Below are positions 25,644 through 64,000 of a DNA stretch of 64,000 nucleotides, piece by piece. The position numbers and the translations under genes are program-made. Positions within the stretch are counted from its first letter, which is position 1. Each line of letters begins with the position of its first letter. The stretch is from Antedon mediterranea. Taxonomy: Eukaryota > Echinodermata > Crinoidea > Comatulida > Antedonidae. The notes under the pieces are model-generated. The model saw nothing but the letters and a program-made list of their open reading frames with translations. It did not search any database and was not told the origin of the DNA. The stretch covers positions 2,073,001 through 2,137,000 of the forward strand of contig NC_092670.1 of NCBI RefSeq assembly GCF_964355755.1, written 5' to 3'.

Positions 25644-25674
<31 letters not shown>

Positions 25675-36246: not shown

Positions 36247-36437
36247 TGTCCTTCCGTTGCGTCATGAGAACCAAGAACAAATCACGATGGGCGTGACGAT
36301 GTTCTAAAATTTTAGGTACCCCCGTAACAGAGTGCACCCCCTATCGAATTACAACAGTAACGGGTTGCATGCTCCGCCTACTTTATGTTTATTCAACGAA
36401 TTTTATGCATCACTAACTCTCGCTTCTTTTCCGGGAT

Positions 36438-41800: not shown

Positions 41801-44800
41801 GTTAATAACTACATATTATAGGGGGTGCAATATATTATGGACTGTCTAGAATATTAGGAACCCTCGTGACAGATTGCACCCCCTATAATATAGCAGTTAA
41901 TAACTATATTTATAGGGGGTGCAATATATTACGGACTGTCTAAAATATTAGGTACCCCCGTAACAGATTGCACCCCCTATAATATAACAGTTAATAACTA
42001 TATTATAGGGGGTGCAATATATTACGGACTGTCTAGAATATTAGGAACCCCCGTAACAGATTGCACCCCCTATAATATAACAGTTAATAACTATATTATA
42101 GGGGGTGCAATATATTACGGACTGTCTAAAATATTAGGTACCCTCGTGACAGATTGCACCCCCTATAATAACAGTTAATTTACTATCTATTTTAGGGGAT
42201 ACAATATATTACGGACTGTCTAGATTATTAGGTACCCTCGTGACAGATTGCACCCCCTATAATATAACAGTTAATAACTACATATTATAGGGGGTGCAAT
42301 ATATTACGGACTGTCTAAAATATTAGGTACCCCCGTAACAGATTGCACCCCCTATAATATAACAGTTAATAACTATATATAGGGGGTGCAATATATTATG
42401 GACTGTCTAGAATATTAGGTACCCCCGTAACAGATTGCACCCCCTATAATAACAGTTACTTCCTAACTATTATAGGGGGTGCAATATATTATGGACTGTC
42501 TGAGAATATTAGGTACCCCCGTAACAGATTGCACCCCCTATAATATAACAGTTAATAACTATATATTATAGGGGGTGCAATATATTACGGACTATCTAGA
42601 ATATTAGGAACCCTCGTAACAGATTGCACCCCCTATAATATAACAGTTAATAACTATATTATAGGGGGTGCAATATATTATGGACTGTCTAAAATATTAG
42701 GTACCCCCGTGACAGATTGCACCCCTATAATAACAGTTAATTACCATCTATATTATGGGATACAATATATTATGGACTGTCTAGAATATTAGGTACCCCC
42801 GTGACAGATTGCACCCCTATAATATAACAGTTAATAACTATATTATAGGGGTGCAATATATTACGGACTGTCTAAAATATTAGGTACCCCCGTGACAGAT
42901 TGCACCCCCTATAATATAACAGGATAATAACTATATTATAGGGGGTGCAATATATTACGGACTGTCTAAAATATTAGGTACCCCCGTAACAGATTGCACC
43001 CCCTATAATAACAGTTAATTTACTATTTATTATAGAGGGTGCAATATATTACGGACTGTCTAAAATATTAGGTACCCCCGTGACAGATTGCACCCCCTAT
43101 AATATAACAGGATAATAACTATATTATAGGGGGTGCAATATATTACGGACTGTCTAAAATATTAGGTACCCCCGTAACAGATTGCACCCCCTATAATAAC
43201 AGTTAATTTACTATTTATTATAGAGGGTGCAATATATTACGGACTATCTAGAATATTAGGTACCCTCGTGACAGATTGCATCCCCTATAATATAACAGTT
43301 AATAACTACATTATAGGGGGTGCAATATATTACGGACTGTCTAGAATATTAGGTACCCCCGTGACAGATTGCACCCCCTATAATATAACAGGATAATAAC
43401 TATATTATAGGGGGTGCAATATATTACGGACTGTCTAGAATATTAGGTACCCCCGTAACAGATTGCACCCCCTATAATAACAGTTAATTTACTATTTATT
43501 ATAGAGGGTGCAATATATTACGGACTGTCTAGAATATTAGGTACCCCCGTAACAGATTGCACCCCCTATAATAACAGTTAATTTACTATTTATTATAGAG
43601 GGTGCAATATATTACGGACTGTCTAGAATATTAGGTACCCCCGTGACAGATTGCACCCCCTATAATATAACAGGATAATAACTATATTATAGGGGGTGCA
43701 ATATATTACGGACTGTCTAGAATATTAGGTACCCTCGTGACAGATTGCACCCTTATAATAACAGTTAATTTACTATGTATTATAGAGGGTGCAATATATT
43801 ACGGGCTGTCTAAAATATTAGGTACCCCCGTGACAGATTGCACCCCCTATAATAACTGTTAATTACCATCTATTATAGGGGGTGCAATATATTATGGACT
43901 GTCTAAAATATTAGGTACCCCCGTAACAGATTGCACCCCCTATAATAACAGTTAATTACTAACTATTATAGGAGGTGCAGCAATATTGTAATGTACCGGT
44001 TTTTAATACAAATAAGTGAGAGAGAGAAAGAGAAGTTGAAAGCTGAATGTTTATTCTTTATTCTACATCTACTATATAATAACAATATCCGTAATGGGTA
44101 ACTTATCTGTCAAGGTGGAATGTTTAGTGGTCTCAGCAGAGGGTCTACTTTAGCCATTAGTGACCATAAGTAGCCAAGGGTTAACATAATATATATGGTA
44201 ACAGGTGAAGGAAGTATAAATAATTGGTAATATTAATCAAGTTCAATACATTACAAATATATTACGGACTGTCTAGAATATTAGGTACCCCCGTAACAGA
44301 TTGCACCCCCTATAATAACAGTTAATTACTATCTATTGTAGGGAGTGCAATATATTACGGGCTGTCTAAAATATTAGGTACCCCCTTGAAGGATTGCACC
44401 CTCTATAAAATCAGTTTATTTACTATCTATTATATTTATTTATTTATTTTATTAACAAAAACAGAAAAGTAAAATTAATTATATAAGACTAAAAATCTGA
44501 ATAAGAAAAATTTGAAATATAGAAAATAACTGATATGATAATGGGTGCAATATTACGGACTGCCTAGAATATTATGCACCTCCGTGACAGATTTGAACCC
44601 CTATAATATAACAGCTAATACCTATTTATTTTAGGGGATAGAATATATCATGGACTGTCTAGAATATTAGGTACCCCCGTGACAGATTGCACCCCTATAA
44701 TATAACAGTTAATTTACTATCTATTTTAGGGGATACAATACATTATGAACTGTCTATCTAGAATATTAGGTACCCCCGTGACAGATTGCACCCTTATAAT

Positions 44801-45355
44801 ATAACAGTTAATAACTATACATTATAGGGGGTGCAATATATTATGGACTGTCTAGAATAATAGGTACCCCGTGACAGATTGCACCCTTATAATATAACAG
44901 TTAATAACTATATATTATAGGGGGTGCAATATATTATGGACTGTCTAGAATAATAGGTACCCCGTGACAGATTGCACCATTATAATAAAACAGTTAATAA
45001 CTATATATTATAAGGGGTGCAATATATTACGGCCTGTCTAGAATATTAGGTACCCCCGTGACAGATTGCACCCCCTATAATATAACAGTTAATAACTATA
45101 TATTATAGGGGGTGCAATATATTATGGACTGTCTAGAATATTAGGTAACCCCGTGACAGATTGCACCCCCTATAATAACAGTTAATTTACTATCTATTTT
45201 AGGGGATACAATATATTACGGACTGTCTAGAATATTAGGTACCCCCGTGACAGATTGCACCCCCTATAATAACAGTTAATTTACTATCTATTTTAGGGGA
45301 TACAATATATTACGGACTGCCTAGAATGTTATGCACCCCTGTGACAGATTGCACT
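38860..45355. repeat. Satellite of about 70 self-complementary 85-95 bp units
   Basis: Consensus order in each unit: TTAGGTACCCCCGTAACAGA, TTGCACCCCCTATAATA, a short AACAGTTAATAACTA spacer, TATTATAGGGGGTGCAA, then TATTACGGACTGTCTAGAA. The CACCCCCTATAATA and TATTATAGGGGGTG halves pair, so every unit can form a hairpin. The array is interrupted at 43990-44260 and 44430-44540. Variants are shared in blocks, for example an ATAGCAGTTAATAAC block at about 41418 and again at about 41891. No protein frame. Confidence 0.92.
43985..44260. other. Non-satellite insert inside the array
   Basis: Starts after GGAGGTGCAGCAATATTG and contains AGTGAGAGAGAGAAAGAG and no satellite motif until about 44262. No coding features; origin unknown. 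Confidence 0.5.
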
Positions 45356-45384
45356 CTGTATAATTTATCATTAACAAGGCCAAC

Positions 45385-45475
45385 AGCCATAAGTCGCGTG
45401 CTAAAACGCATAGTGATACCAGACCGACCGACCGACCGACATAGTGAACTATAGAGTCGTCCACGCGACTAAAAA
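45385..45475. repeat. Inverted fragment of the GTCGGTC composite repeat
   Basis: CGCGTGCTAAAACGCATAGT, GATACCAGACCGACCGACC and ACATAGTGAACTATAGAG, then CACGCGACTAAAAAC, is the reverse complement of the unit joints in the 24818-27312 array. It sits at the right edge of the satellite. Confidence 0.75.
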
Positions 45476-45767
45476 CTCATATTTGATGGTGTGTCTTGAA
45501 AATGAGGAAGCTAGTGACCACCCTAAAACATTACCACTTTCTATTTTATTTTGAAAGGCAGCAGCTCTAAAAAAAATGTAACTGTAAACCAAATTCACTG
45601 TGGTCCCTCCTGTCCAACAATGTTACTCAGGTAATTTATCATACAGACAAGAAATTACGTTTATCAAGTTTAACCGCCAAATCCCTTGATGGTCGATGAA
45701 TCATTTAGATAACTGGTATATAACGGATTAAAAGTCGGACGATTGTCACATTTTCCGACAATTCGAG

Positions 45768-45882
45768 ATGGAAGACTACGAACCTATTTTCAAGTATATC
45801 TTTAGTGGTGAGTATCCACCAGAATACACAAAAACGGCAAAAAACCTCTTGAGGAGAAAGGCCAAGCTTTTTGAAATAAAAG
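45768..45882 (+). CDS. Exon 1, N-terminus of integrase protein
   Basis: MEDYEPIFKYIFSGEYPPEY, then TKTAKNLLRRKAKLFEIK. Similar leader segments precede the zinc-binding domain of KRBA2/gypsy-like integrases. Start is the first ATG after GATTGTCACATTTTCCGACA; donor G|GTAACT, phase 1. Confidence 0.75.
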
Positions 45883-48800
45883 GTAACTTTTTTTTCTTAC
45901 GCTGTGATTAGCAAGGCGAACCAAATTGACAATAGACGTTATAAAACTTTAATTAATATCCAAAATAACAATTTGAATTTATATCACCCCCACCCCACCC
46001 CCTCTCTCTGTCGGGAATTGTATTCCAGGCTGTTATAATAGCATGGATCTATAAATGTTTTGTTTTGTTTTAATTTTCCACTAACGTATATTTAAAAAGT
46101 GTATATCCATGTAAAATACAAAAACTTTTTGTTGTTGGTACGTTGGCAGGTGACTACCTCTATCACAAAACCAAAGATGGTGGAACATCACGCTGCATTA
46201 AAGATCGTTCAGAAATCAAAGAAATCTTAAGGGAAGCTCATGATCTGCCGTCTGGTGGCCATCAGGGCCAAAACAAAACAGTTGCATTTGTTTGTAAACG
46301 ATTTTATTGGCCAGGGCAAACCATTGACATAAAAAATTGGGTAGGTATTTTAAAGTAAGGAAATATATAATATTATAAAATTATTACTATAGCTCTATCT
46401 AAAGATGTTTTTCTTTTTTTATGTATTGCCACTGTCCACAACTTTTTATAAATCAGATAAAGAAATGTGAGAAATGCCAGAAAAGTGAAAAAATTAAATC
46501 TGTGGCAAAACAAGTTCAACCTATTGAGGTACGTATAAATCTAAAGTATGATTTTTTTTAGAAACAGACCTACATTTGCATTTTGTAAGCCTACTAAAGT
46601 TGAACTTATGATTACATGACATTATTATTATAGGTTGTTTTGAAACTTTTGTAATATATTAATTTTCTTTAAGGTTACGGGTCCTTTTGAAATGATGGGT
46701 ATCGACTTGATGGGCCCATACAAAGTAGCAGGTGGTGGAAAAAAATACATCTTTACTGCCACTGATTATTTCACAAAATGGTGTGAAGCCATGATCATCC
46801 CAAACAAAACAAGCGAGCACGTTGCCAGATGTCTTGTAAAGGTGTATTACAGGCATGGTGCTGTTCAGACTGTTATTAGTGACAACGGTAGAGAATTTGT
46901 TAACGAGGTAATGCTTTTATCAGTTTATTAATTAACACCGATTTATATCCATAACGTTTTGTATTAAGAAATAAGATACGTCGTGATAAGATATATACAG
47001 TATTTCCAATTTTTTTCGTTAAAGTAAATTGATTTCTTTTAATTCGATACATTAAAAACAATTGTGAGTATTTCATTAAGTTTTATTTAAAATATATAAT
47101 TTTTAAATATTAATTTTGTTGTGTAAGGTAAACAAACGGTTGTATGGTATCCTGGGTATCGAACACAGGAAGACAACAGCCTATCACCCGCAGACAAACG
47201 GACTTGACGAGAGCACAAACAAAAAAATAAAACAGTAAGTAACAAAAAAAAACACACTTTAAACCAAAGAATTGTAATGCATAACTTAAAACTAAGATCT
47301 AGAAAACTAACACCTAACATATCGTAGTTTTCTAGAAAACTAAGATATGTTAGGTGTTAGTTTTCTAGATCCAATGATGGGTATCTAGAAAACTAAGAAC
47401 CAAGATATCTTAGTTTTCTAGATCTAGAAAACTACGATTTTTTAATGGGCGATTGTACCATTTTTAGTGAATTTATACAATACAATATTATGAAAAAATG
47501 GGTATTACTATCCTCCATTTATTTTCTTACAAATCAAGTTAAAATACAGTACTATTACTTTCTTATTTATTTATTCTTTTTGTTTTAGTAATTGGGCAGA
47601 TTAATTTCAAATTATTTAATATTAATTTATTTGTGATAGCGGTAATAAGTACATGTGCAAAATTGTACTGACTAAATCAGGTACCAAATAATAATTATAT
47701 GAGTGTGTGTGTTGTGAATGTAGACAGGACAGGAGTAAACTCAAACAAAAAGTAACAATTTTTCACATATTTCATCACCCTGTTTGTATAAATATAGATA
47801 AGTACAAGAAGCAAGCAAATTATTAAATGAATCACTGAATATTTATTACTAAGTAGTACTTTTAGCACTATTAGTAAAACCACTGGATAAAATAGTTATA
47901 ATTTATAATGTATACTATTTGTCTATCCAAACAGAAAATCTAAATTGTTGTTGTCTAATTAAAACAATTAAAAAGTCACTAAAAATACATTACCCTTGAC
48001 AAAAAAATCTTTTTTGTGAATTCTTTTCTGGATCTAAAAAACTAAGATATCTTTATTCTTAGTTTTCTTGATCTTAGTTTTCCAGACACCCATCATCGGA
48101 TCTAGAAAACTAAGACCTACGATATCTTAATTTTCTAGATCTAGCAAACTCAGATATCTTAGGTCTTAGTTTATAGATCTTAGTTTTCTAGACACCATTA
48201 AGATGTTTTCTACTCCAAGCCACAATGTTTTTTTTTTCTTTATTTTGTCTATTTCAGATGTTTGAGCAAATTAGTTAATGACAATCAAGACGATTGGGAG
48301 TCGTATCTAGATGCGGCCGTATTTGCGTTAAATACGAAAATCCAAACAACTACAAAGTATTCTCCATTTTTTTTACTGTATAACCGCGAACCAAAAATAC
48401 CTGCGGAATATACTGATGAGGACCTGGTTTGGGTAAGAAGGTCCTATTTTGATTTTAACACCAAACTTTTGCATTAGGCCTATTTACACATTTTTTTGAT
48501 TAGTGAATGTCATCTTTTTCCATTATGATAGCTATCAGACATACCAAAAACGTCAATGCCGACGGAACAAAACCAGGCAGCAATAAAAACGAAGGTAAAA
48601 ACTACAAAGGAGCAGGTTTTAAGGAACATTAAAAAAAAACAATCGGCACAAGTCAGGAAGAGTGTGAAGAAAACTGTTGGTACGCCGATAACAGCCGGCA
48701 TGAAAGTGCTCGTCCGCAATCAGAGAAAGCGGAACATAAAGGGCGAAAAACTTGGTCCTAATTTTACAGGACCCTTTAAAGTTTTAGATGTTAATGGCAA

Positions 48801-51800
48801 AGTCTTGACCGTTACAGATGAAAAGAGGGTTAGAGTCGTAAATGTCGACTATGCCAAAATTTTCACCGAAAGTAAGTTCACCAAAGCGATACGATTACCT
48901 TACCGTAGTTGGATAATTTCCAAAGCGAAATTTCGCATTACAAAGTGTTAATGATATTTTCCTAATTATTAATTTAAATTATTTTTATAATATCTCTCTG
49001 TGTTTTTATTGGAAAATATCACAGAGTTTGGAGAGAGCCATGTAAGTTGTGATTATTTTAAAATTACAACTAACTGTCAAGGTTGTTCATGTTAATTATA
49101 TAAATTTAGTTATTTTTTCAAATTAAAATTTTTTTTTTTATAAACTAGGTAACACAGAATCTCAAGAGCCAGGTAAGTTGTTAAATTTTAAATACAATAC
49201 AAAAGTCTTCATGTAATTATCTAGATTGAATTATATTATCGACAAATTATGTTTATAATATTTGCTTTAAAAAAAGTGGAACATCACAGAGTCTCAAAAG
49301 CCTGGTAAGTTGTTATTTAGAAAAAAAACCAATTCAAAACATTGTTCATGGTAATTATATAAATGTAATTATGTTTGTAATATTTTTTTTTTTTTATTAG
49401 ATAACACCACAGAGCCTCAAGAGCCAGGTAAGTTGTAATATTTTATAAATATAATTGTCGATATTGTTCATGTTAATTATATAGATTTAATTATGTTATA
49501 AAATTGTGTTTATAATTTTTTTTTTATTAGATAACATCACAGAGCCTCAAGAGCCAGGTAAGTTGCAATATTTTATAAATATAATTGTCGATATTGTTTA
49601 TGTTAATTATATAGATTTAATTATGTTATTGAATTATACTTATAATATTTGCTTTTTTAAAATTAGATAACATCACAGAGTCTCAAGATACAGGTAAGTT
49701 GTAATATTTTATAAATATAATTGTCGATGTTGTTCGTGTTAATTACATAGATTTAATTATGTTATTAAATTATGCTAATATTTGCTTTTTTAAATTAGAT
49801 AACATCACAGAGCCTCAAGAGCCTGGTAAGTTGTAATATTTTATAAATATAATTGACGATATTGTTCATGTTAATTATATAGATTTAATTATGTTATAAA
49901 ATTGTGTTTATAATTTTTTTTTAATTAGATAACATCACAGAGCCTCAAGAGCCAGGTAAGTTGCAATATTTTATAAATATAATTGTCGATATTGTTCATG
50001 TTAATTATATAGATTTAATTATGTTATTGAATTATGCTTATAATATTTGCTTTTTTAAAAATTAGATAACATCACAGAGTCTCAAGATACAGGTAAGTTG
50101 TAATATTTTATAAATATAATTGTCGATGTTGTTTGTGTTAATTACATAGATTTAATTATGTTATTGAATTATGCTAATATTTGCTTTTTTAAATTAGATA
50201 ACATCACAGAGTCTCAAGAGCCTGGTAAGTTGTAATATTTATAAATATAATTGACGATATTGTTCATGTTAATTATATAGATTTAATTATGTTATAAAAT
50301 TGTGTTTATAATTTTTTTTTTTATTAGATAACATCACAGAGCCTCAAGAGCCAGGTAAGTTGCAATATTTTATAAATATAATTGTCGATATTGTTCATGT
50401 TAATTACATAGATTTAATTATGTTATTGAATTATGCTAATATTTGCTTTTTTAAACTAGATAACATCACAGAGCCTCAAGAGCCAGGTAAGTTGGAATAT
50501 ATTATAAATATAATTGTCGATATTGTTCATGTTAATTACAGTACATAGATTTAATTATGTTATTGAATTATGCTAATATTTGTTTTTTTTATTAGATAAC
50601 ATCACAGAGCCTCAAGAGCCAGGTAAGTTGTAATATTTTATAAATATAATTGTTGATATTGTTCATGTTAATTATATAGATTTAATTATGTTATTGAATT
50701 ATGCTAATATTTGCTTTTTTAAATTAGATAACATCACAGAGTCTCAAGAGCCTGGTAAGTTGTAATATTTTATAAATATAATTGTCGATATTGTTCATGT
50801 TAATTACATAGATTTAATCATGTTATTAAATTATGCTAATATTTGCTTTTTTAAATTAGATAACATCACAGAGCCTCAAGAGCCTGGTAAGTTGTAATAT
50901 TTATAAATATAATTGACGATATTGTTCATGTTAATTATATAGATTTAATTACGTTATAAAATTGTGTTTATAATTTTTTTTTTATTAGATAACATCACAG
51001 AGCCTCAAGAGCCAGGTAAGTTGCAATATTTTATAAATATAATTGTCGATATTGTTCATGTTAATTACATAGATTTAATTATGTTATTGAATTATGCTAA
51101 TATTTGCTTTTTTAAATTAGATAACATCACAGAGCCTCAAGAGCCAGGTAAGTTGTAATATTTTATAAATATAATTGTCGATATTGTTCATGTTAATTAT
51201 ATAGATTTAATTATGTTATTGAATTATGCTAATATTTGCTTTTTTAAATTAGATAACATCACAGAGTCTCAAGAGCCTGGTAAGTTGTAATATTTATAAA
51301 TATAATTGACGATATTGTTCATGTTAATTATATAGATTTAATTATGTTATAAAATTGTGTTTATAATTTTTTTTTTTATTAGATAACATCACAGAGCCTC
51401 AAGAGCCAGGTAAGTTGCAATATTTTATAAATATAATTTTCGATATTGTTCATGTTAATTACATAGATTTAATTATGTTATTGAATTATGCTAATATTTG
51501 CTTTTTTAAATTAGATAACATCACAGAGCCTCAAGAGCCAGGTAAGTTGTAATATTTTATAAATATAATTGTCGATATTGTTCATGTTAATTATATAGAT
51601 TTAATTATGTTATTGAATTATGCTAATATTTGCTTTTTTAAATTAGATAACATCACAGAGTCTCAAGAGCCTGGTAAGTTGTAATATTTTATAAATATAA
51701 TTGTCGATATTGTTCATGTTAATTACATAGATTTAATTATGTTATTAAATTATGCTAATATTTGCTTTTTTAAATTAGATAACATCACAGAGCCTCAAGA

Positions 51801-52918
51801 GCCTGGTAAGTTGTAATATTTTATAAATATAATTGACGATATTGTTCATGTTAATTATATAGATTTAATTATGTTATAAGATTGTGTTTATAATTTTTTT
51901 TTTTATTAGATAACATCACAGAGCCTCAAGAGCCAGGTAAGTTGTAATATTTATAAATATAATTGTCGATATTGTTCATGTTAATTACATAGATTTAATT
52001 ATGTTATTGAATTATGCTAATATTTGCTTTTTTAAATTAGATAACATCACAGAGTCTCAAGATCCAGGTAAGTTGTAATATTTTATAAATATAATTGTCG
52101 ATATTGTTCATGTTAATTATATAGGCCTATAGATTTAATTATGTTATTAAATTGTTTTTATAAAATTTTGTTTTTATTTTTTTTATTAGATAACATCACA
52201 GAGTCTCAAGAGCCAGGTAAGTTGGAATATTTTATAAATATAATTTTCGATATTGATCATGTTAATTATATAGATTTAATTATGTTATTGAATTATGCTA
52301 ATATTTGCTTTTTTAAATTAGATAACATCACAGAGTCTCAAGATCCAGGTAAGTTGTAATATTTTATAAATATAATTGTCGATATTGTTCATGTTAATTA
52401 CATAGATTTAATTATGTTATTGAATTATGCTAATATTTGCTTTTTCAAATTAGATAACATCACGGACTCTCAAGAGCCTGGTAAGTTGTAATATTTTATA
52501 AATATAATTGTCGATATTGTTCATGTTAATTACATAGATTTAATTATGTTATTGAATTATGCTAATATTTGCTTTTTTTTTAATTAGATAACATCACAGA
52601 GCCTCAAGAGCCAGGTAAGTTGTTAAATAGAAACAAATACGATTCAACACATTCTTTATGTTAATTATATAAATTTTAATTTATCAAATTATGTTTATAT
52701 TATTTTATAAGTATGTAATATTTTTTTTTAATTAGATAACATCACAGAGTCCCAAGAGACAGGTAGGTTGTCAAAGTTTATAAAGCAATGTTCATGTTAT
52801 ATTAATTTTGATTAATTTATCACATTCTTTTTATATATTTGGTGATTTCATCAATTCTCAAGAACCAGGAAAATTGTAATATTTTAACAACATTGTTCAT
52901 AATATTTTATCTATTTAT

Positions 52919-52967
<49 letters not shown>

Positions 52968-55900
52968 AATTAGATAACAACAAAGATTCTCAAGAGCCTG
53001 GTAAGTTGTTATTATTTTATATATTAAAGCATTGTTTTTATGTTTGATTAAATTATTTTATCAATAATGTATATTTGGTTTCATTTTTTCTTGTATCAGA
53101 TGATTTTACAGAGTCTCAAGAACCAGGTATTTTAAAAATTCTTATATTCAACAATGTTCTTCATGTTAGTTTAGGCCTATAGATATAGACTACTGTAGGT
53201 CATAATTAATTTGTTAATTTAATTTAAATATTTTGATTCAGCATTATAGATGCTTGTGTGTTTTGGCTTTCCCTGCCTTTTATTTATTTTGTATTTGGTA
53301 GTATTATGAATAAAACAGAAATAAACTTACAAGAAAAAGATATATATCCATTGATATAATTGTAAAAATCAATGGACCTTTCCTAGCTAGAATGTTACAA
53401 TAGGTGCAGCATATATAACACTTACATTATTTTCCTTTCTCTTTAGTTGAAGATGAAGATTTTTTTAATCTACGTAAGTACATAATTGAAAATAATAAAA
53501 GAACTGATATATACTGATTTGCTCCTAAAAATGCCCCTGTTGTTGATCCATTGTAGCAATAGTTTTAGTATAATTAAATAAAAAACAATTTTATTCCAGC
53601 TGAACTAGATATATCATGGACAAAGCAAGAGAGTTGTGAGTATATAAATCTTTTTGTACATAAAAATAAATTATATGTTATAATAAAAGTATAGTCTGAA
53701 TAATATTTTTTATTAAGTCAGCCGGTCAGCAGATTAGACCTACTAATTCTGCACTCACTGTAGCAAACAATGAAAAACAAAGTAATGGGACTTGAATTAC
53801 AGTAACAAAGTTATTAAAAGATGATTTTAAAGCTTGCAGAAAATATTATGATCCAAATTCAACATTTTTTTACAGTTAAAATAGGTGCAGATTGGAGAAC
53901 CAAGCAAAACATTGATCTGAATATTAAACAAGAAGGTATGTATAAATTGTGTATTGTTATGTTTTTTTATTTATTGAACAATAACCTAATTTGTATGCAG
54001 CAATACAACAAACAATTATTTCAAACTCCTTTTATACAGTGATAAGTGATGAAGATGAGCAGAAAGATGATGATGAAGATGAGCAGAAAGATAATGATGA
54101 TGAGAAGAAAGGTAATACTAATAGGAATTAAAAGTTTTTATTCAAACAGAACTGTGCTTAGTTATGATATACAGTATTACATACTAATGTTACACAATGC
54201 TACAGTATATTTAAATGTTGTTCTTTAAATAGCTCAAGAAATTGGTAGATATTATGATAATGAAACGGCAGAGAATGGTAAGTCTAATATAGTACAATTT
54301 AATAATTATCAAATCAGTAGGCCTAATATAAATTTTTAAAATTGTATAAAAATGAAATGGTAGTTTTGTACATTTTTACAATAATATTATAATCATATTG
54401 TTACACTATATACTACTGTACGGTTTCCCCTTTCTTTTAAAAATGGGATTTAGGTTAATAAGATATGTCATTTTTTCATTTTTTGTGATTGATTGAGTGA
54501 TCGATAACTGGTAATCAAAATTATAAATCTCTCTTTAAGATGAAAATTTAAAAGTGACTACAATATAAACATGATTACAGTTCTAATTGCTTTTAAAATG
54601 AAAAAAAATTTTGTTTAAAGCTCTTACCACCGCATGGAAACAGAAAAATCATAGGTGTTTGCTAAGTAAAGTTGGAGATTTTAAAATATACAACAATGAT
54701 ATAAAAACTATTGAGAGTTGGCTCTCTGATCAGGTAAGCCTAATATGTTTGTAATCTAAGTTAAATGAAGTTATTTAAAGTCTGTCAATACCTTTTGTGT
54801 TTTGTTGTATTTTATGTATGTTTTGATCTCTTTTATTTAATGTAAGCATGTTTAGGTCCACCCTTTATAAATAATATTGTTTAATTGTTTTGTAATACTA
54901 AGTTCTGTATGTTTATTTGAACAACAGAAAGAATTGAATTACATTATTATTTATTGGGCTGTGTAATATCATTACTCTTTTAAATTGCAGGTCATAGATG
55001 TGTACATAGAAATGTTAATGCATAGGAATAAGGTTGGTACTGTATTCCATTGTCAAAATATAGTTAAATAACAATTTATAATGACCTCATAATTGTACAG
55101 TGAAACAGGACTGGTGAATTAGTATTTACACAAAATTGAATATAAATGTAACATACCACTATCTTCAACAGTAAAAGATAACTGTAATGTGCTTTCAAAT
55201 GTTAAGCATATATTTTCTATTGTGTCATACAGGAACAGAGAACACACCGAATTGATGCAGTGATTATGACAGAAATTCTGAAAGGAAAGTGTCAAGAAAA
55301 CTATCTGAGAAGGGTAAGGATTTCGAACAACCAGCAATGTAGGTTTTACATGTTGAAAAGTTTACTGTCCATGTGGCAGCACAACATCTCTTATATCAAC
55401 ACGAAGTCACTGATAGTGTCCCTATAACATGATGAATTAAATAAAAGCACACTGAGTAATCAATATTCCTGAATATTTATTTGAACATTTATATTGAATG
55501 ACATCAGTCACACAGATTCAAATTGATTCACATGCCTTTATGTCACATGAGATACAAACTGACTAGATATCCACAAATGTTTTCACACTATGTATTATTA
55601 TAAATATGTTTATTTCATTAGGTTGACTTGTCGCAATTTGACATCATAATAGGCGCACTGATTGAGAATCGTCACTGGACACTTGTGGTATATATTCTTT
55701 ATGTAAAAAATATAAACTATAACTTTAGGGACATGTTTTTTCCACAATTTACTACATTATCATATACTTTATTTTAAGAAGTGATATGGAAATTTTCTTC
55801 ATATTTCTTTAAAATACATATTGCCAGTTATTATTCACTTAAAAAGCATTACAAATATATAACATGTAAAGTAAATTGTGATTAACTATTATTGGCAAAT

Positions 55901-58900
55901 GACATAGTGTCCGACAAGTCATCCATAATAAGTAATAACTAATAAAGCTCTTGAAATTGTTCTAAAGAAATAATATCATTATAATATCAATTGATAAATA
56001 ACATATTTAATTCCAGGTTGGATACCCACAGCAAAGACTACTGATATACCTAAACTCGTTAGGAGAACTTCAAGAACAAGTTGAGACCATCAAGATGAAC
56101 TGGAAGTAAGAAAACAAATATTAACGAAAATGAGCTCACAAATACAGTACATAAATCAACCATTGCATGCTACTAATATGATTCATTGTTTATTTATTAT
56201 TAGCAAATTTCTACAGATGAGATTCAACAAGGGAATTGTGGGAAGTGAGCAAGAAAGTTGGGATGTATCTACATCTGTTCATTCCAAACAACAAGACAGT
56301 TCGTCATGTGGTGTGTTTGTACTAAAGGTAAATATGAACAATTACAGTACATACATTCGTTATCAAAACAAATCAACTTTTTCTAATTATATGCCATGTA
56401 TGTAACATAGTTTTATGCTGAAGTGCTCTAAACGTTGTTTGGCATTTCTCAACAAAATCAATTAACAGCGCAAATTTTTATTCTAAGTTTGCACAGGCTT
56501 CATTAGAAAATCAAAGTCTGATTTTTAAAACAGACAAGAAATCAATACAGCATTACAGAAAACAAATTGGTGTAGAAATGTTAATGGCTTCAGGTATGAT
56601 TTTTTACAGATATTGTACACTGATAGTACTTTTAATTATAGTCAATAAGTGAACTATAGGTTTTATTGAATTCTAACAATGGTATTTTTCTTTAAAGGTT
56701 TGAATTGCTAATAAACACTAGTAAAGTTAGGTTTGCAGTATGCTATGTGTTTTTCGTGTGCACCACAAACCTAACTTTACTAATTCTAACAATGTTTCAA
56801 ACAATTCAGCCTATAGTTTATGACTTACTCCATACTGTAATTAAGCACTTAGCAACTCAAAGATATACAGAGAGCAACAGAGGGCTTGTTATTTGTTATT
56901 TTGCTTCATATTTAAAATAGTAGTATTTTTTATCAACTACATATCAATTTTTCTGAAATTCAATAATTCAATGTTCTGTGAGTATATATTCAGGATTATA
57001 ACTTGAAAATTGTGGATGCTATCGTGCAAACAAACAAACAATAAATAAATTGCAGACAAAATACAGCATGCCTTGGTTGCATAAGTTTTGCTGCCTGATG
57101 AAAATTATAAGGATATAAAAACTCTAAACCTTCAAGTCAGACAATTTCAAGAAAATATCAATTTACATCCAATATGAAGTAGATAAATTTTAAATATTGG
57201 GATTTTTCTAATGAAATGTTGATATAACTGTAGCATCAAGTAATTATAAATTTGTATTCTTGTTGGACAGAAAACCTAGATTCCTATTGCAGAATCTGTG
57301 GATATGAAGATCTGCCGACTAGTTTAGATAACAATGATACTCAAACAGTGCAATGGGTAGGTACAACAATATAGATGAACTACAAAATAATCCAGGGTCT
57401 AGTATACTTTATCCGCACAGCAAATGCCACATGCACGCCATGCATTAGAATATTGCTCACAGAAAAAGATTATGCCACTATGCCCTAAAGAAAATGTATG
57501 CCATCTACTTTGTGTCATATAGTATATATAGTATACATAGAATACTGTATACATGCTGTAGCATGTAGCATGCCTTTTATTAACATTTTTAACATGATGA
57601 CTTTGTCAAAATAAAAACCAAAGAACGTAATTTTGGAAGAAAAGTATCTGAGCAACAAGATTATTAACCAAAAATGGATACACAGGTGCATGACTTTTTA
57701 AATGTGATAAACAATGAAGCATAAGATAAAAATCTAGAAATTTTTCGTTCAACTAGCCATATGATTCATATCTACAATTCAGTATCACATTGATTATTCA
57801 TAGCAGCTATATAACAGATTAAAATTTACTGTAAAGAAAAAAATAAATGACCCATATTATTATTATTTGAATTTGTTGACATGATGTTGTCATCAAAATT
57901 AAAATGTTTGTAAATCAGGCTTAAGATATTTAATTGAGCAAACAACTATTAAATTCTTGAGGGAAATTGTACGAATAAGCGAGATGCGCAATATTAATTG
58001 TTTCACGAATCATGTAAAAAGTTCATCAGAACTTAATTCAACAGAAAGTGTTAAAAAAAAAATAACTGTTAGTGTTTAATCTATGATCAATTTTTAAAAT
58101 TCATGAAATTTTAAATCATGTTGCACAATTCTGACATTAAAAATAGGAGGTACACAACTTCATATAAATAAATGTCTATATGTTGACAAAGTTACGCAAT
58201 ATTGTTTGAACATTTTATAGCTACGTGACCATAAAGAAAGAATAATAAATAACAAGGAGTTATATATAAGTGCTAAAACAATTTTTCATAATTACCAACA
58301 ATCTATACTTCAATTAAATCCCTGGATTAATAGAAGGAACTAGGGTTTGCTAGGCAAATATTAAATATTGATAAGATCATTTTGTTTTGTGAATTATAAA
58401 TTTGCAGTTGGATATGCAATTATATAATAAACCTGTAGGCCTAACTATTTTTATTCATTTTTTGCAGATTGCTTGTGAGGAATGTAAACCAGATAAGTGG
58501 TTTCACATAGAATGCACAGAAATCTGTCCATCATTTAGTATGAATCAAAAATATAAATGCAAAAGCTGCACGCCTCTAAAAAAAACAACACAGCAAAAAC
58601 CAGATAAATCAGAGCCATTTGAACTTGTTTATTTATCAAACAGGATACGAAAATGCAAGGGATGTGGCAAGGAGTTTATAAAGCCAATTATCTCTCCATA
58701 TAACACTGTCATAAGACACAAAGAGCGAACCCCTTACTTTAACAAAGCAACGGGTCAAATGGCACTGTCAAAATTGGCAAATGTATACTTCCATCCCAGT
58801 ACAAAGTGTGTGAGACTTTGTCATCCTGGTTTCAAGCCAATTCACTTGATAAAGGCCAAGGAAACCATGTTAACGAATGTCCAAAAGACATTTCTTCAAA

Positions 58901-58923
58901 TGAAAGGTTTTAATTTAAGTTAA
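45768..58923 (+). CDS. Ginger1-like protein: DDE integrase + GPY/F + microexon-coded repeat + Ulp1-like protease + PHD finger
   Basis: About 50 exons. Integrase exons: 45768-45882, 46150-46340, 46457-46528, 46674-46907, 47128-47234, 48258-48432, 48532-48871. A 24-nt exon (49149-49172) and the 27-nt microexon array follow (49401-52762, plus 52974-53000, 53100-53126 and 53447-53473). Then come 53600-53635, 53876-53935, 54040-54111 and 54233-54277. Protease exons: 54621-54733, 54991-55032, 55233-55313, 55622-55687, 56017-56105, 56204-56327, 56488-56593. PHD exons: 57271-57356 and 58468-58923. Phases agree at every junction; total 3417 nt, 1138 residues plus stop. Known: Ginger1 DNA transposons carry a gypsy-like integrase and may carry PHD and Ulp1/OTU protease domains. 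Not found: terminal inverted repeats or a target duplication. It may be an active element or a domesticated gene. It probably acts in the nucleus. Confidence 0.8.
46150..46528 (+). CDS. Exons 2-3, HHCC zinc-binding domain of integrase
   Basis: Exons 46150-46340 and 46457-46528 encode LREAHDLPSGGHQGQNK, RFYWPGQTIDIKNW, then IKKCEKCQKSEK. This is the H-H-C-C (integrase H2C2) module that precedes the catalytic core in retroelement integrases. Confidence 0.88.
46674..47234 (+). CDS. Exons 4-5, DDE integrase core
   Basis: Exons 46674-46907 and 47128-47234. Catalytic residues: D in MGIDLMGP, D in VISDNGREF, E in NGLDESTNKK. There are 58 residues between the two aspartates and 35 between the second aspartate and the glutamate, the classical D,D35E spacing. 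HPQTNG, conserved before the glutamate, is also present. All catalytic residues are kept, so the enzyme could be active. Confidence 0.9.
47290..48200. repeat. TCTAGAAAACTAAGATATCT hairpin repeats in an intron
   Basis: Two clusters (47297-47440 and 48030-48195) of alternating GATCTAGAAAACTAAGATA and its reverse complement TATCTTAGTTTTCTAGATC, separated by CCCATCATTGG or CACCCATCATCGG. Strong secondary structure expected. Both clusters lie between integrase exons 5 and 6. Confidence 0.75.
48258..48871 (+). CDS. Exons 6-7, integrase C-terminal part and GPY/F module
   Basis: Exons 48258-48432 (CLSKLVNDNQDDWESYLDAA, FALNTKIQTTTKYSPFFLLY) and 48532-48871 (basic region, then VLVRNQRKRNIKGEKLGPNF, TGPFKVLDVNGKVLTV). 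GPNFTGPF is the GPY/F motif. If the donor at 48872 is not used, the frame stays open to TAA at 48949-48951, giving an integrase-only protein. Confidence 0.85.
49149..53473 (+). repeat. Array of at least 26 tandem 27-nt microexons plus flanking variants
   Basis: Canonical exons start at 49401, 49531, 49667, 49799, 49929, 50066, 50198, 50328, 50460, 50596, 50728, 50860, 50989, 51121, 51253, 51383, 51515, 51647, 51779, 51910, 52041, 52190, 52322, 52454, 52588 and 52736, each 27 nt. Most are ATAACATCACAGAGCCTCAA-type and encode DNITEPQEP, DNITESQEP or DNITESQDT. Each has TTAG before it and GTAAGTTG after it (GTAGGTTG in the last), phase 1-1. The period is about 131 bp. Outliers: a 24-nt exon at 49149-49172 (GNTESQEP) and 27-nt exons at 52974-53000 (DNNKDSQEP), 53100-53126 (DDFTESQEP) and 53447-53473. 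Decayed copies without usable splice sites lie near 49013, 49275 and 52841. It lies between the GPY/F and protease parts, probably as a flexible acidic linker. Confidence 0.9.
52920..52966. repeat. (TA)n microsatellite
   Basis: About 20 TA units in the intron before the exon at 52974. Confidence 0.9.
53474..53599. other. Short intron between linker exons
   Basis: AT-rich, no repeat. Confidence 0.3.
53600..54277 (+). CDS. Linker exons with acidic stretch
   Basis: Exons 53600-53635 (PELDISWTKQES), 53876-53935 (KIGADWRTKQNIDLNIKQE), 54040-54111 (acidic: ISDEDEQKDDDEDEQKDNDD) and 54233-54277 (AQEIGRYYDNETAEN). All are phase 1-1. No domain recognised; a disordered region is likely. Confidence 0.65.
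54621..56593 (+). CDS. Ulp1/SENP-like (C48) cysteine protease domain, seven exons
   Basis: Exons 54621-54733, 54991-55032, 55233-55313, 55622-55687, 56017-56105, 56204-56327 and 56488-56593. Motifs in order: IESWLSDQVIDVYIEML, the catalytic histidine in IENRHWTLVV, RLLIYLNSLGE where the catalytic acid is expected, HSKQQDSSSCGVFVLKFA with the oxyanion glutamine and the nucleophile cysteine. The usual aspartate (as in YDS) is an asparagine here (LNS). C48 enzymes cleave ubiquitin-like proteins such as SUMO. Whether this one is active with N is unknown. Confidence 0.82.
56713..56790. repeat. Hairpin TAGTAAAGTTAGGTTTG in an intron
   Basis: TAGTAAAGTTAGGTTTG and its reverse complement CAAACCTAACTTTACTA, about 30 bases apart. 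Confidence 0.6.
57271..58923 (+). CDS. PHD finger and C-terminal Cys/His region
   Basis: Exons 57271-57356 (SYCRICGYEDLPTSLD) and 58468-58923 (IACEECKPDKWFHIECTEIC, YKCKSC) form a C4-H-C3 PHD pattern split by a roughly 1.1-kb intron. The last part (KCKGCGKEFIKP, FHPSTKCVRLCHP) looks like a second small zinc module and ends KGFNLS-TAA. PHD fingers bind histone tails, suggesting chromatin targeting. Confidence 0.82.
57770..58240. repeat. Interspersed repeat, copy B (partner 35170-35560)
   Basis: In the intron between the two PHD exons. Same ordered motifs as copy A, diverged by many small indels. Confidence 0.65.
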
Positions 58924-58964
58924 ATCAAGTTACTATTTTTTGACATTTGGATAGTAAATCACAC

Positions 58965-59150
58965 TTTTAGGTCGAAAATATAAATTGGTAGCACCAATTT
59001 ATTCTATTACTATTTATCCTGTTTTATATATCTTTTAACAAAAGTATTGAAACACATTTTTTAAAGAACCTTTAGGTTGAAAATATGAATTGGTAGCACC
59101 AATTTATTTTAATATTTAACCTGTTTTATATATCTTTTAACAAAATTTAA
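58965..59150. repeat. Tandem duplicated 100-bp segment
   Basis: AAATTGGTAGCACCAATTTA followed by TATCCTGTTTTATATATC and TTTTAACAAA occurs twice, 102 bp apart, just downstream of the Ginger-like gene's stop codon. Confidence 0.7.
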
Positions 59151-59789
59151 AATATTATAATAGTATTTTATTGGTTACTCTCCTTTAAAATGTAGGAATT
59201 ATTAATTTATAATATATTGTGCTATGCGACATACCTATATTAAAAAAGTTACATACAGGTATTACACACATTTTTGTTATTGTATGTATCTATACAAATG
59301 GGGTATCAATATGAGGGAGTAATGGATCATAGCCTTATGCTGTACTGGGTGGGTTTTCATTTAACATTTGAAAACTGCCACGACGGACGGGCAGGGGAGG
59401 TTGGTGACGGGGGGAGGGGGGGTTGGTACCCACTCTGCGGCAAGTATCTCTGCTTACAATCATGCTCTCGCACCTTTAAGTAGTGCAATTATTTTGTTCT
59501 CATTCCAGTTTCTACTTACAGTATTTGTGATAGCTATACAGTAATTTTACAAGATTACAATTATTTTACCACACAATTTTCTTTGCACTTTTGTTTTACA
59601 CCATAGCAATGTTGATCTTTTTTAAAATTAAGTATACACTAAAATACAAAAGTGGAAATGTATGTTGAACTGAACGTATTTATTTTAAATCTTCTGATGT
59701 AGTATATTCAATTTTAATTCATGATCAGTTTCCTTTCTGACTTTCCATGGAAAAAATGTGTGAAACTTTTGCACTTTCTCCACCGTCCA

Positions 59790-60483
59790 TATTGTTGTTG
59801 TAATCTTTCTTTTAATTGTATAATATGTCTGAATGCGGCCAAAAATGATATTGCTTACAATGCTAAGAAATCATCTTGTATGATAATCTGTCCTAAATCA
59901 CAGAGGATTCAATTGAAACCTATTATTACCATTAATGACAAAAGCTTAGAATATGTTGACTCAACCATATATCTTGGTCATGTTATCGATATAAAGCGGC
60001 AATACAGATCTTTGTGTATCTGAGCAAACTCCTTGGTCAGAAAATTTAGTATGTGTTCTATCAATGTAAAATGTGTTTTATTTAGAACATATTGTGTAAA
60101 TATGTATTGCGCTACATTATGGTGCAACTATAATCAAGGTACCTTGCGATCTCTCCAGGTATGCTACAATAATGGTTTAAGAATGTTGCTACAAAGGCCT
60201 CGACATTGCAGTGTCAGCCTTATGTTTACGGAATGTAGAATTCCTTCTTTTTATGAATTGCCAAGAAATCAATATATGGCCTGATGGGTAGACTAAATGC
60301 AAGCGAAAATATTTTAGTCTCAACGATTATAAGCAACGTCTTAGTTAAGTCGAAGATGCCCTCTAGGTGGATTACAGTAGTAGTAGTAATTAGTCTTGTT
60401 TATTTTATTTCATTTATATGTAATTTTCACTTTCTATGGACCAGAGATTCCGAAATAAAAGAATGAATGAATGAATGAATAAC
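59790..60483 (+). mobile_element. LINE fragment, 3' part of reverse transcriptase, frameshifted
   Basis: Frame 1 (to about 60020): NAKKSSCMIICPKSQRIQLK, then SLEYVDSTIYLGHVID. Frame 2 (60033-60284): KCVLFRTYCVNMYCATLWCN, then LRSLQVCYNNGLRMLLQRPR. These are typical C-terminal segments of non-LTR reverse transcriptases. At least one frameshift breaks them. The 3' end is an AATAAAAGAATGAATGAATG tail at 60455-60482. Dead copy. Confidence 0.7.
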
Positions 60484-61189
60484 CCCAGTGTTGTTAATTT
60501 GTCCAAAGTACAGTACGCCTTTTTACATCAATTTAATTTTAACATTTTTCACAATTGTGTCGTTTTGTTCAAGTGCTTTTGGAGTGCCCTCAATTTTAAA
60601 TAAGGTTTCAATTTTATACCATAAAACCTTACCAGGCAATACTTTTGCATCATTTGTCATTATTTTCGTGTTTTTACGAGGTCAAATGTCAAAATTGAAA
60701 TGGTCTCAAATTTGAAATTGTTAAAAGTTGCAAATTTTTGATACAATTTGCCATACCAAGTTTTATGATTTCTAACCAAATTTGAAGTATTTTAGGTCTA
60801 AGAAGCCTACCAATAGTGGAACTCTCCCAATAGAACATGATTTTTAATAAAGGCTCCGTCAAATCCATTATACACAATTGTGTATCACATTTCAATCTGT
60901 AGTAGAATGACATGATCTACAATTTACCAAGTATTTTGATAATACAATTTTCACTGTATTCACTTATACAGTAGGACTATTCTGAATGAATGAATGCGCT
61001 GCTTGCACAGCATTTATTGTCAAATATATAAAATATTTAAAATAAGTTTTTAAATGACGCCCTACAAAGAACAGATCGCACAACACAAAAGTTTGACGTT
61101 TAAATAGAGGTGCCAAATTTTTTCATAGCTAGTACTAGTAGTAGGGGATATTTATTAGATTTATACTGTATTTCCTGTTACCACATTAC

Positions 61190-61770
61190 ACCTAAAAAAT
61201 AAACGCCTAGGCCCTAGGCCTAGTTAGGTCTCTACTGAGTAGGCTAGTAACTACTATAAGTACTATCTCTACCACCATCTACTAGGAATAAGCCTAGGCC
61301 CTAGGCCTATAGTAGTAGTATTACTTTACCTAATAAGGCTAGTAGTAGAGTAGACAATAATTAATAAACTTTCTTTTAGGCCTATATTCTATATAAGTAG
61401 TAGGCCCAGTAGTAGAATGCTTACTACACGGGAATCCCTTACTACTTGGGTAGTAGGCCTGGCCCTACGGGATACGGCCCCTACTCACCACCACCATCCG
61501 ACCCCATTTATTTTTACCTTTTCACAGTCTCAGTCAGGCCTAGCTAGGCCTAGCTAGGCCTATGACTTGTATTGTAGACCTATGCTAGGCCTAGTGTATG
61601 TCTTTAATAATAGTAGTATACTTTATTACGGAGTGGGAAATATATCCTTCCTCTAGGCTAATTAAAAAAGAATAATTAATAAATAACTAGGCCTAGGCCC
61701 TAGACCTAGGCCGGCCATCTAGGCCTAGGCCTACTACCTATAGGCCTAGTATCCCGTACGACACACGACG
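61190..61770. repeat. AGGCCTAGGC-rich tract
   Basis: A very high density of CTAGGCCTAGGCC-type palindromic motifs with interspersed TAGTAGTA. The motif occurs singly all over the window and is concentrated here. No coding features. Confidence 0.7.
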
Positions 61771-61884
61771 TACAGTACACACTTCTTCTTTTTTAACACA
61801 CGCGATCCATATCATCATCATCAGAGGGGATGCTAAAAAATATGGGCGGTTCGCAAATGCAAATTAGACTGTGACGTCATTTGT

Positions 61885-61935
61885 AATTCGATAGGGGGTG
61901 CACTCTGTTATGGGGGTACCTAAAATTTTAGAACA
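61885..61935. repeat. Inverted copy of the GGTACCCCCGTAACAGAGTGC segment
   Basis: GATAGGGGGTGCACTCTGTT and ATGGGGGTACCTAAAATTTT are the reverse complement of 36302-36352 with one or two changes. Both share the core of the satellite unit (GGTACCCCCGTAACAGA, TGCACCCCCTAT). Confidence 0.75.
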
Positions 61936-62005
61936 ACGACGTTGTGGTGGTTGTAGTCGGATCTTCATAGAACCAGGGAAGAGTTTCTTCCCTGGTACTG
62001 TAGAA

Positions 62006-62136
62006 CGGTAGTAAAGTTTTCGGAAAACTATAGAGGGCGTCATTGTACTAAAATAAACGCAGTCAAGCATTTAGTACCAAGAGCAGACAATTTCGGTTAC
62101 TTAGCACGGAGTCACCATTGATTATTTGGTTGTTAG
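62006..62136 (+). repeat. Promoter-region direct repeat, copy 1
   Basis: GAACGGTAGTAAAGTTTTC ... AGAGGGCGTCATTGTACTAA ... AGTACCAAGAGCAGACAAT ... GATTATTTGGTTGTTA. Copy 2 is at 63044-63174, directly upstream of the claudin-like start codon. Confidence 0.8.
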
Positions 62137-62439
62137 AAAATTGATGTTTTTTTGTCCATACATTTTAGAAACAAGTTAACTACTACCTGTACTATTAGAA
62201 ATCGGAAAAAAGAATATTATATGTTGCAGTTTGAACAAAAATAATAAGATATTTGAAAAACGTGGACAATCCTAAATGATATTACGAACATCAAATTGGG
62301 TACTGAGACTTTCTCTTATAATGATAAGAATGCTGATGTAACTCCTTTTTTTTTAATATCGGAGAAAAACTAAATAATAAATTTAGGCATGAAGGTCAAA
62401 ATGATCAAAACACTCACAGAACTTTCTTAAAATGAAATT

Positions 62440-62670
62440 TTACCTCTTCAAGTGTTTTTTAAACCTGCTACTGAGCATGAAATTAACCACTATATTAAAA
62501 AAAAAAAAAAATACTGCTCTTGGCCATGATGGTATAAAGTCCTCAACTTATAAAATCTGCTTCTCTGTTTATTTTAAAACCTTTAGTGCCTATTATCAAT
62601 ACCTCATGATCATCGGGTTCTGTCCCAACTGATATAAAAATTGTTATCCCGGTAATTGAATACAGTCTGG
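62440..62670 (+). mobile_element. LINE fragment, reverse-transcriptase N-terminal part, frameshifted
   Basis: NTALGHDGIKSSTYK and, in another frame, SSGSVPTDIKIVIPV, both typical of non-LTR reverse transcriptases. A poly-A run and frameshifts break the frame. Confidence 0.55.
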
Positions 62671-62869
62671 AACCGCTTACCAAACTACCGTACATTGTAT
62701 TTCTTACTTAATTATATAAAACGTAACGAACCATTTATTATCAGATAAAACTGAAGTGAAAACGCCTGTGTCTGCTGTGTGGTAACATACAGCAGATAGT
62801 ACCGTGTACTTAGCACACACACTGGATTAGTACATTTTTGGAAATACAGTTTCCCTTTATATGTGAAGC

Positions 62870-62985
62870 TTGCTTGCTTGCAAGGACGTAAGCACAACGC
62901 AGTCGAGTTGACCAATGACGAATAATTTCGCTTTTGGTCAAATTACCTTGCGTTGCGCTTATGCCCTTGCGAGAACCAAGGACCC
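62870..62985. mobile_element. Palindromic MITE-like copy
   Basis: TTGCAAGGACGTAAGCACAAC ends and GCGCTTATGCCCTTGCGAGA, inner GAGTTGACCAATGACG mirrored by TTTGGTCAAATTACCTTGCG. Related to the copies at 31690-34820. Confidence 0.5.
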
Positions 62986-63043
62986 CACTAAGGACCAATC
63001 AATTAATATAATAAGCGCGTAATGTTGTGGTAGAGGATCTTTG

Positions 63044-63174
63044 AACGGTAGTAAAGTTTTCTGAAACTATAGAGGGCGTCATTGTACTAAAATAAACGCA
63101 GTCAAGCATTTAGTACCAAGAGCAGACAATTTCAGTTACTTAGCACGGAGTCACCATTGATTATTTGGTTGTTA
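63044..63174 (+). promoter_or_regulatory. Upstream region of claudin-like gene, direct-repeat copy 2
   Basis: Nearly identical to 62006-62136. Lies about 80 bp before the ATG at 63254, so it probably holds the 5' UTR or core promoter. The two copies are 1,040 bp apart and the insert contains a LINE scrap and a MITE. Confidence 0.5.
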
Positions 63175-63253
63175 AGCCTTTCAGAAAATAACTCGGCCTA
63201 AAACTCACATGTTTTTACTTTTGTCCAGTACTTTTATTTAACATTTCTAAACG

Positions 63254-63670: not shown

Positions 63671-64000
63671 AAGATTTGTTGTCGTTAAAACTGTGCCTAC
63701 GAGTCAGTTTTATCTGAAAAGTTTTAAGTCAAAATTATTATTGTATTTATTACACAAAACAAAATAGTTGCCACGGGAGGTGCTACCAGTACAAAATGTT
63801 AATCTTTCACTTATTTTATTGTCAATATAAACTTTTACCTAAAACTGACAGAAGCACAGTAAATTATGAATGGTGGTATTGTGAATTTTGTGGATTTAGT
63901 GAATGCTTGGTGGTGTATTACATGTTACGCCGTGGTTAGGAATCCGGCACCGGAACTCAACTGCCCACCGTTAGGGAATCCGACACGCACGGCGTACATG
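63671..64000 (+). other. Intron of claudin-like gene
   Basis: Nothing recognised to the end of the window. Confidence 0.4.

Follow-up and report, generated by a model that had tools for sequence, protein, structure and literature searches.

The question raised by this locus is whether a tandem array of short, near-identical units inside a predicted transposase gene is an array of exons, such that a repetitive segment of the encoded protein would be put together by splicing. The array is located in a 64,000-nucleotide stretch of the Antedon mediterranea genome (assembly GCF_964355755.1, NC_092670.1, positions 2,073,001-2,137,000, forward strand), which is hereinafter called the window and to which all coordinates refer. 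The gene that contains the array encodes an integrase-type transposase and is framed by terminal inverted repeats (TIRs) with a target-site duplication (TSD). Judging from the sequence, we lean toward the view that the array encodes a splicing-coded, length-variable acidic linker that grew by block-wise tandem duplication in a giant Ginger1-related transposon.

Tandem Repeats Finder (TRF) delineates an array at 49083-52623 with a period of 132, 26.8 copies and 87% matches, along with higher-order periods of 262 and 394. A scan with the 27-nt core of the unit, at a threshold of at least 17 of 27 matches, detected 32 copies at 49013-53126 and, on both strands of the window, two matches outside the array (scoring 17 and 18 of 27). 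The copies at 49013 and 52842, which score just 17 of 27, were accepted by their place in the array and not by their score. The array consists of the following parts.

49013-49041, + strand: decayed unit without an AG acceptor (17/27), recognized by position and donor
49149-49172, + strand: 24-nt microexon, the first in which both splice sites are present (core scan, splice model)
49278-49304, + strand: decayed unit with a one-base register shift (core scan)
49401-52614, + strand: core array of 25 microexons of 27 nt encoding variants of DNITE(P/S)QEP (TRF, core scan, splice model)
52736-52762, + strand: microexon DNITESQET with both splice sites (core scan, splice model)
52842-52868, + strand: decayed unit with neither AG nor GT (17/27), recognized by position
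52974-53000, + strand: microexon DNNKDSQEP with both splice sites (core scan, splice model)
53100-53126, + strand: microexon DDFTESQEP with both splice sites (core scan, splice model)

Both AG and GT are present in 29 of the 32 copies, namely the 25 core units and those at 49149, 52736, 52974 and 53100. The three decayed copies (49013, 49278 and 52842) are all at the edges; in the copy at 49278, the register is off by one base, and the exon would be 28 nt long if the nearest AG were used. The first-pass annotation of this DNA had proposed at least 26 near-identical microexons repeated every 131 bp or so, all in phase 1-1, so that exons could be gained, lost or skipped without a change of frame. 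The copy counts given above, the TRF period together with the spacing of the 25 core units (129-149 bp, with starts from 49401 to 52588), and the phase logic, which is exact in all 29 intact microexons, bear this out. Its further statements, that each copy has its own acceptor and a shared donor and that all the exons are 27 nt long, hold for most of the array: the acceptor AG is present in 29/29 intact copies, the donor is exactly GTAAGTTG in 27 of these, and 28 are 27 nt long. They do not hold for the three decayed copies, for the variant donors at 52736 (GTAGGTTG) and 53100 (GTATTTTA), or for the exon at 49149-49172, which is 24 nt long through in-frame loss of one codon. The proposed end of the array at 53473 had to be abandoned: the exon at 53447-53473 is indeed 27 nt long and in phase 1-1, but it encodes a different sequence, VEDEDFFNL, and is not a copy of the unit. 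The consensus exon is matched exactly by 11 of the 29 intact microexons, whose translations comprise DNITEPQEP (14), DNITESQEP (5) and ten more of eight kinds; the SQ dipeptide that characterizes the S-type repeat is found in 14 of them.

The array is embedded in a gene model that was drawn by hand from the reading frame and splice signals alone. The model (45768-58923) consists of 50 exons, 29 of which are the intact microexons, with 3408 nt in total (1135 codons and a stop); all 49 introns have GT-AG boundaries, and there is no stop codon before the end. The remaining 21 exons are distributed as follows.

45768-48871, + strand: exons 1-7, H2C2 zinc finger, DDE core and GPF motif, ending in phase 1 (PF17921 2.2e-20, PF00665 3.8e-14)
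53447-54277, + strand: five phase 1-1 acidic linker exons of 27, 36, 60, 72 and 45 nt (splice model, TRF)
54621-56593, + strand: exons of the Ulp1/C48 protease with HW, LNS and Q..SSSCG (PF02902 2.8e-9; SENP1 chain 2ckg_A 2.8e-11)
57271-58923, + strand: last two exons, PHD-like finger and C-terminus, with the stop codon at 58921-58923 (ALFIN-like PHD chain 5yc3_A 4.1e-4)

The predicted domain order is thus H2C2 zinc finger, DD35E integrase, linker, Ulp1/C48 protease and PHD-like finger. The placement of the array between an integrase and a protease, which had been proposed earlier, is upheld by the Pfam and structure matches, with the integrase on the 5' side and Ulp1 on the 3' side in a Ginger1-like gene. 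The DD35E triad is formed by D137, D196 and E232, with 35 residues between the last two. A GPY/F motif is found in exon 7 (FTGPFKV), where it aligns by eye with GP(F/Y) of the homologs P0007, P0005, P0019 and P0003; the sequence EYPPEY...LFEIKGDYLYHK upstream of the zinc finger is compatible with the YPYY motif of Ginger1. The protease retains HW and Q..SCG, and the Asp of the SENP1 triad is replaced by Asn (by eye); because the fish homologs P0003 and P0035 also have Asn at this position (by eye), this substitution is not a private loss. For the C-terminal finger, no PHD family was detected in Pfam at 0.001, despite the match to the PHD chain.

The microexons join exon 7, whose end at 48871 is in phase 1, as well as the exon at 53447, which starts in phase 1. 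Among the 21 exons outside the array, only five, those at 53447, 53600, 53876, 54040 and 54233, are in phase 1-1. The linker exon at 54041-54111 contains internal tandem repeats of 21-24 bp encoding acidic DEDEQKD-like sequence, a second kind of linker growth.

To assess the splice signals, donor and acceptor matrices were built from the 20 other introns of the gene (with leave-one-out scoring for these), and GT and AG on the reverse strand served as the control. All 25 core donors score 9.9 or 11.6. The other 20 donors of the gene average 6.8 and reach at most 9.8, and the 99th percentile for the reverse-strand GT is 7.7. There are no changes in the donor octamer across the 25 core copies (0/200), and the acceptor AG is invariant too. 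Every one of the 25 core exons is 27 nt long, and the 24 core introns take eight lengths, from 102 to 122 nt. Introns of this size suit intron definition, which permits the use of 27-nt exons.

The same units could instead be an intronic minisatellite with cryptic splice sites, generated by slippage in what would effectively be a 4.6-kb intron (48871-53447) and usually skipped. We consider this explanation unlikely, and yet a number of observations either favor it directly or weaken the case for exons. Joining exon 7 directly to 53447 keeps the frame, so that the model without the array is open as well. The core acceptors, many of which are moderate, score from 1.7 to 10.1 (most at 3.8; the other acceptors of the gene have a mean of 5.2 and a range of -1.2 to 9.2), and 16 of the 25 are under the 95th percentile of the reverse-strand AG (6.1); therefore, acceptors alone cannot single out the exons. 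The exon chain has no stops in a second frame either, and no protein match to the array region was found at E <= 0.001 among 4951 candidates. Recent duplication alone could explain the homogeneity of the core, where pairs of units without any difference exist.

The pattern of substitutions was examined in a MAFFT alignment of all 32 units (25 core and 7 edge copies). Compared with the core consensus, the seven edge copies differ at 42/189 positions of the exon (22%) and 6/56 positions of the donor (11%), against 52/140 in the last 20 intron bases (37%) and 248/546 in the remaining flanks (45%); the copies were found by exon match, which favors the figure for the exon, whereas the search made no use of the donor. 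This better retention of exon and donor than of flanks in diverged copies argues against a minisatellite, as does the fact that the core donors outscore every other donor in the gene; moreover, descent from a functional exon in phase 1-1, of the kind seen in the next five, would account for the phase of the units without coincidence.

Further analysis of the alignment is less favorable to exons. The decayed edge copies keep the donor equally (2/24 mismatches vs 4/32 in the other edge copies; for the exon, 22/81 vs 20/108). In the core, variable columns amount to 7/37 in exon, donor and AG vs 31/70 in the flanks (Fisher p = 0.011), but to 6/37 vs 25/83 (p = 0.12) once the two end units, which were dropped because their flanks leave the array, are taken out; the same test on the exon alone gives p = 0.11, or 0.47 without the end units. 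Relative to the start of the exon, the best-kept 27-base window is shifted upstream by 5 bases in the core and downstream by 7 bases in the edge copies, and 16/107 windows in the core and 21/107 in the edge copies have lower values than the one that coincides with the exon; the most conserved windows cover the acceptor end and the exon in the core, and the donor together with the 3' half of the exon in the edge copies. Relative to an inferred S-type exon, amino-acid changes number 6 vs 8.0 expected in three copies with intact sites (P = 0.12) and 13 vs 16.5 in five copies, two of them decayed (P = 0.05), with the edge copies 49013 and 49149 excluded for indels. Thus, constraint is not significant at the level of codons or, without the end units, of the core. 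Selection on the residues of the repeat is not convincingly shown (P = 0.05-0.12), and the substitution patterns add little. The main argument for exons is therefore the architecture, that is, frame, phase, splice signals and continuity of the gene. Taken together, these features make it fairly probable, in our judgment, that at least several of the microexons are included in the mRNA.

Differences between the core units (the first excluded) average 12.4 for neighbors, 8.1 at an offset of three and 8.3 at an offset of eight, and identity is seen between some distant units (50328 and 51383; 51253 and 51647). Because of these dips and identical pairs, we read the array as having grown by blocks of 3-5 units, through unequal exchange or slippage, after duplications of single units; the block sizes were read by eye from the difference matrix. 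Given the identical units, the assembly may have mis-sized the array. The S type is found in 6 of the 7 edge copies, and the core mixes P and S, which suggests that the S-type repeat is probably ancestral.

Under the reading that we favor, the 32 copies would stem from one linker exon with its intron, about 131 bp in all, that was duplicated both as a single unit and as blocks of 3-5, in a transposon gene for an integrase-type transposase with a Ulp1 (SUMO) protease and a PHD-like finger. Since each of the 29 microexons consists of whole codons in phase 1-1, and nearly all have a strong donor, any number of them could be included or skipped, or gained or lost, without disturbing the frame. Each would add one acidic, presumably disordered repeat of nine residues, DNITE(P/S)QEP, and the array would act as a spacer of variable length from integrase to protease, which would depend on genomic copy number and on splicing. 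That length actually varies among individuals or transcripts, by either route, seems to us an evenly balanced proposition, and the default expectation would be that the repeats form a flexible spacer. The SQ dipeptide is a target motif of DNA-damage kinases, and it is pure speculation that the S-type repeats could turn the linker into a phosphorylation-counted target of these enzymes.

The limits of the element were sought among 364,620 TG..CA pairs around the gene (left ends at 25000-45768, right ends at 58923-64000). The best pair, 36300/61935, has 29/30 matches, compared with 24/30 for the runner-up, and is the only one with at least 20/30 matches and a direct duplication of 4-6 bp. It delimits an element of 25,636 bp (36300-61935) with 55-bp TIRs, a 4-bp TSD, a TIR identity that ends sharply at both limits, and TGTTC at both termini.

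36296-36299, no strand: left TSD, ACGA, identical to 61936-61939 and directly outside the TIRs
36300-36354, + strand: left TIR of 55 bp, starting with TGTTCT and matching the reverse complement of 61881-61935 at 54/55 positions
38873-45354, + strand: satellite with 94-bp units made of TIR-like copies, 67.7 copies by TRF, with a 469-bp higher order (TRF, TIR matching)
61881-61935, - strand: right TIR of 55 bp (TIR pair search)
61936-61939, no strand: right TSD, ACGA (TIR pair search)

The 6.5-kb satellite, located upstream of the gene, contains 63 forward and 15 reverse matches to the TIR; 59 of the 63 forward matches cover at least 41 of the 55 bases, with a mean identity of 85%. Outside the satellite, the only TIR matches in the window are the two ends of the element and 37666-37703, and 50 shuffled TIRs produced no matches in the whole window. 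As the satellite is built of TIR-like copies, both TIR sequence and one exon have been amplified within a single element. The copies in the satellite may provide extra binding sites for the transposase.

We consider it likely that 36300 and 61935 are the true limits of a transposon, which may be mobile or may have been so recently. Another element enclosing a Ginger1-like gene, or two unrelated ends of one family, might have supplied the TIR pair and TSD, an alternative that we hold to be rather improbable. It would fit with ACGA and TGTTC, which differ from the CCGG/CCGT and TGTNR published for Ginger1 (PMC2836005), and no empty (paralogous) site across the junction was found when sought in the window. 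It fits poorly with the uniqueness of the pair in the search described above, and the combination of a 55-bp TIR with a 4-bp TSD containing a central CG matches the pattern of the group. Alternatively, the element could be a dead copy in which an array of exons that was once coding is now drifting and not expressed. Three of the 32 units are decayed, and the element contains a LINE-like fragment (by eye), but the 50 open exons with their 49 canonical introns, the DD35E triad and the protease His and Cys in place, and the near-identical TIRs make this scenario very unlikely.

Several other repeats are present in and near the element. At its left end, 36430-36793 and 37272-37644 form an inverted pair of 373 bp (94% identical), either a nested element or an end structure; in the 3' part, 59718-60023 is an open frame resembling a reverse transcriptase fragment of a long interspersed nuclear element (LINE; by eye); and a 133-bp direct repeat (62003-62135 and 63043-63174, 98%) starts 68 bp outside the right TIR. 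Copies of a repeat that is about 776 bp long and contains runs of the tetranucleotides TGTC/GTCG are located at 24828-27315 and 45373-45477, so that pieces of this family lie, in reverse orientation, just upstream of the start codon of the transposase. Farther away, 8107-8471 and 18548-18913 are inverted copies (366 bp, 98.6%), probably of a recent short transposon, and both strands of the region 835-34561 carry exons that, by eye, resemble those of Kringle, PAN and LDL-receptor type; units of 12 bp are repeated in tandem there at 21550-21602 and 23165-23206.

A protein search yielded 267 matches, 120 of which were listed, and four local alignments were compared. The 120 listed matches are mostly Gypsy-type polyproteins and integrases, with a few integrase-Ulp1 proteins. 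Among them, the closest architectures, in which an integrase part, a linker and Ulp1 are shared with the Antedon element, come from cyprinid fish (P0003 and P0004 of Labeo rohita, P0035 of Cirrhinus) and a scallop (P0005); some of these predicted genes appear to be fused with others. P0035 and P0005 also have the PHD-like finger (by eye). For P0003, the integrase alignment runs as far as residue 411, encoded by the final complete codon of exon 7, and the protease alignment begins at residue 505 of the array-less model; for P0005, the integrase alignment ends at 388 and the Ulp1-PHD alignment starts at 509. Because both alignments break between integrase and protease, the array falls in a part that these proteins do not share. 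No DNITE repeat was detected among the seven relative sequences compared. A search with residues 470-875 of the array-less model gave no protein match among 1716 candidates, although it was insensitive, given that P0003 and P0005 do align there. The linker of P0003 contains four 19-residue repeats of unrelated sequence, which P0004 lacks (by eye), and hence growth of the linker by repeats may be recurrent, by different means.

What is new in this analysis is the delineation of the element by its TIRs and TSD, and the satellite built from TIR-like copies. If the microexons are spliced in, the locus would provide a tandem repeat that arises in the protein through splicing alone, each unit being encoded by an exon of its own, with junction peptides of the DNITEPQEPDNITESQEP type spanning the repeats. 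It would also offer a natural system of about 30 near-identical donor/acceptor pairs for the study of intron definition, skipping and back-splicing, an example of coding repeats expanding at no cost to the frame, and an indication that a cut-and-paste transposon tolerates large tandem growth of its gene and its ends. More tentatively, and on balance we are doubtful of it, the spliced microexons could be a variable number tandem repeat through which the transposon would use the host spliceosome as a length dial for a tether between integrase and SUMO protease, nine-residue modules being added and removed by recombination as well as by skipping of exons, with the TIR-like copies as dozens of extra binding sites.

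Ginger1 elements, as described by Bao, Kapitonov and Jurka in 2010 (PMC2836005), are 2.6-7 kb long with TIRs of 40-270 bp and 0-4 introns, a TSD of CCGG or CCGT/ACGG, termini of TGTNR, and OTU or Ulp1 at the C-terminus, with PHD in Ginger1-9_HM. The Antedon element shares with them the H2C2 zinc finger, the DDE core, GPY/F, the C-terminal Ulp1 and PHD, introns in the transposase, TIR length within the range and a TSD of 4 bp. It differs in size (25.6 kb), in its 49 modeled introns, in the TSD, where the central CG alone agrees, and in the fifth base of the termini; because of these differences, we classify it as Ginger1-related, but not as a strict member of the group. The earlier impression that no described Ginger element has such an array agrees with the available part of PMC2836005, in which neither a microexon array nor a TIR-derived satellite is mentioned; among the listed literature matches on Ginger and on microexon or exon arrays, no comparable array was found in the parts available.

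Domestication of Ginger1 genes offers a further explanation, namely that the locus is a host gene, like GIN1, GIN2 and Imagin, and the array a host innovation. The many introns would be in line with this, given that host genes derived from Ginger1 contain between six and eight of them (PMC2836005). In Imagin, which is one such domesticated gene, the triad has been lost and inverted repeats are absent (PMC12863088). The Antedon element, in contrast, has TIRs and a TSD framing the gene, and its catalytic triad is kept; because of these TIRs and the TSD, we give this explanation little credence.

In schistosome micro-exon genes (MEGs), very small symmetrical exons make up most of the coding region (PMC4350168), and these measure up to 36 bp (PMC8293314). 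What is shared is the principle of small symmetric exons that can be skipped without a change of frame, whereas the families are different: in the Antedon gene, 31 of the 50 exons are at most 36 nt long but sum to only 843 of 3408 nt, and they are mostly near-identical copies in a transposase. In titin, the 47 PEVK exons studied encode 1586 residues, about 34 each, and 15 of the 47 are partially included (PMC6300359). Like the Antedon array, this is a long run of short exons encoding a repetitive region, in that case a spring, with partial inclusion of some; it differs in belonging to a host muscle gene and in having exons of about 34 residues, as opposed to the near-identical exons of 27 nt found here.

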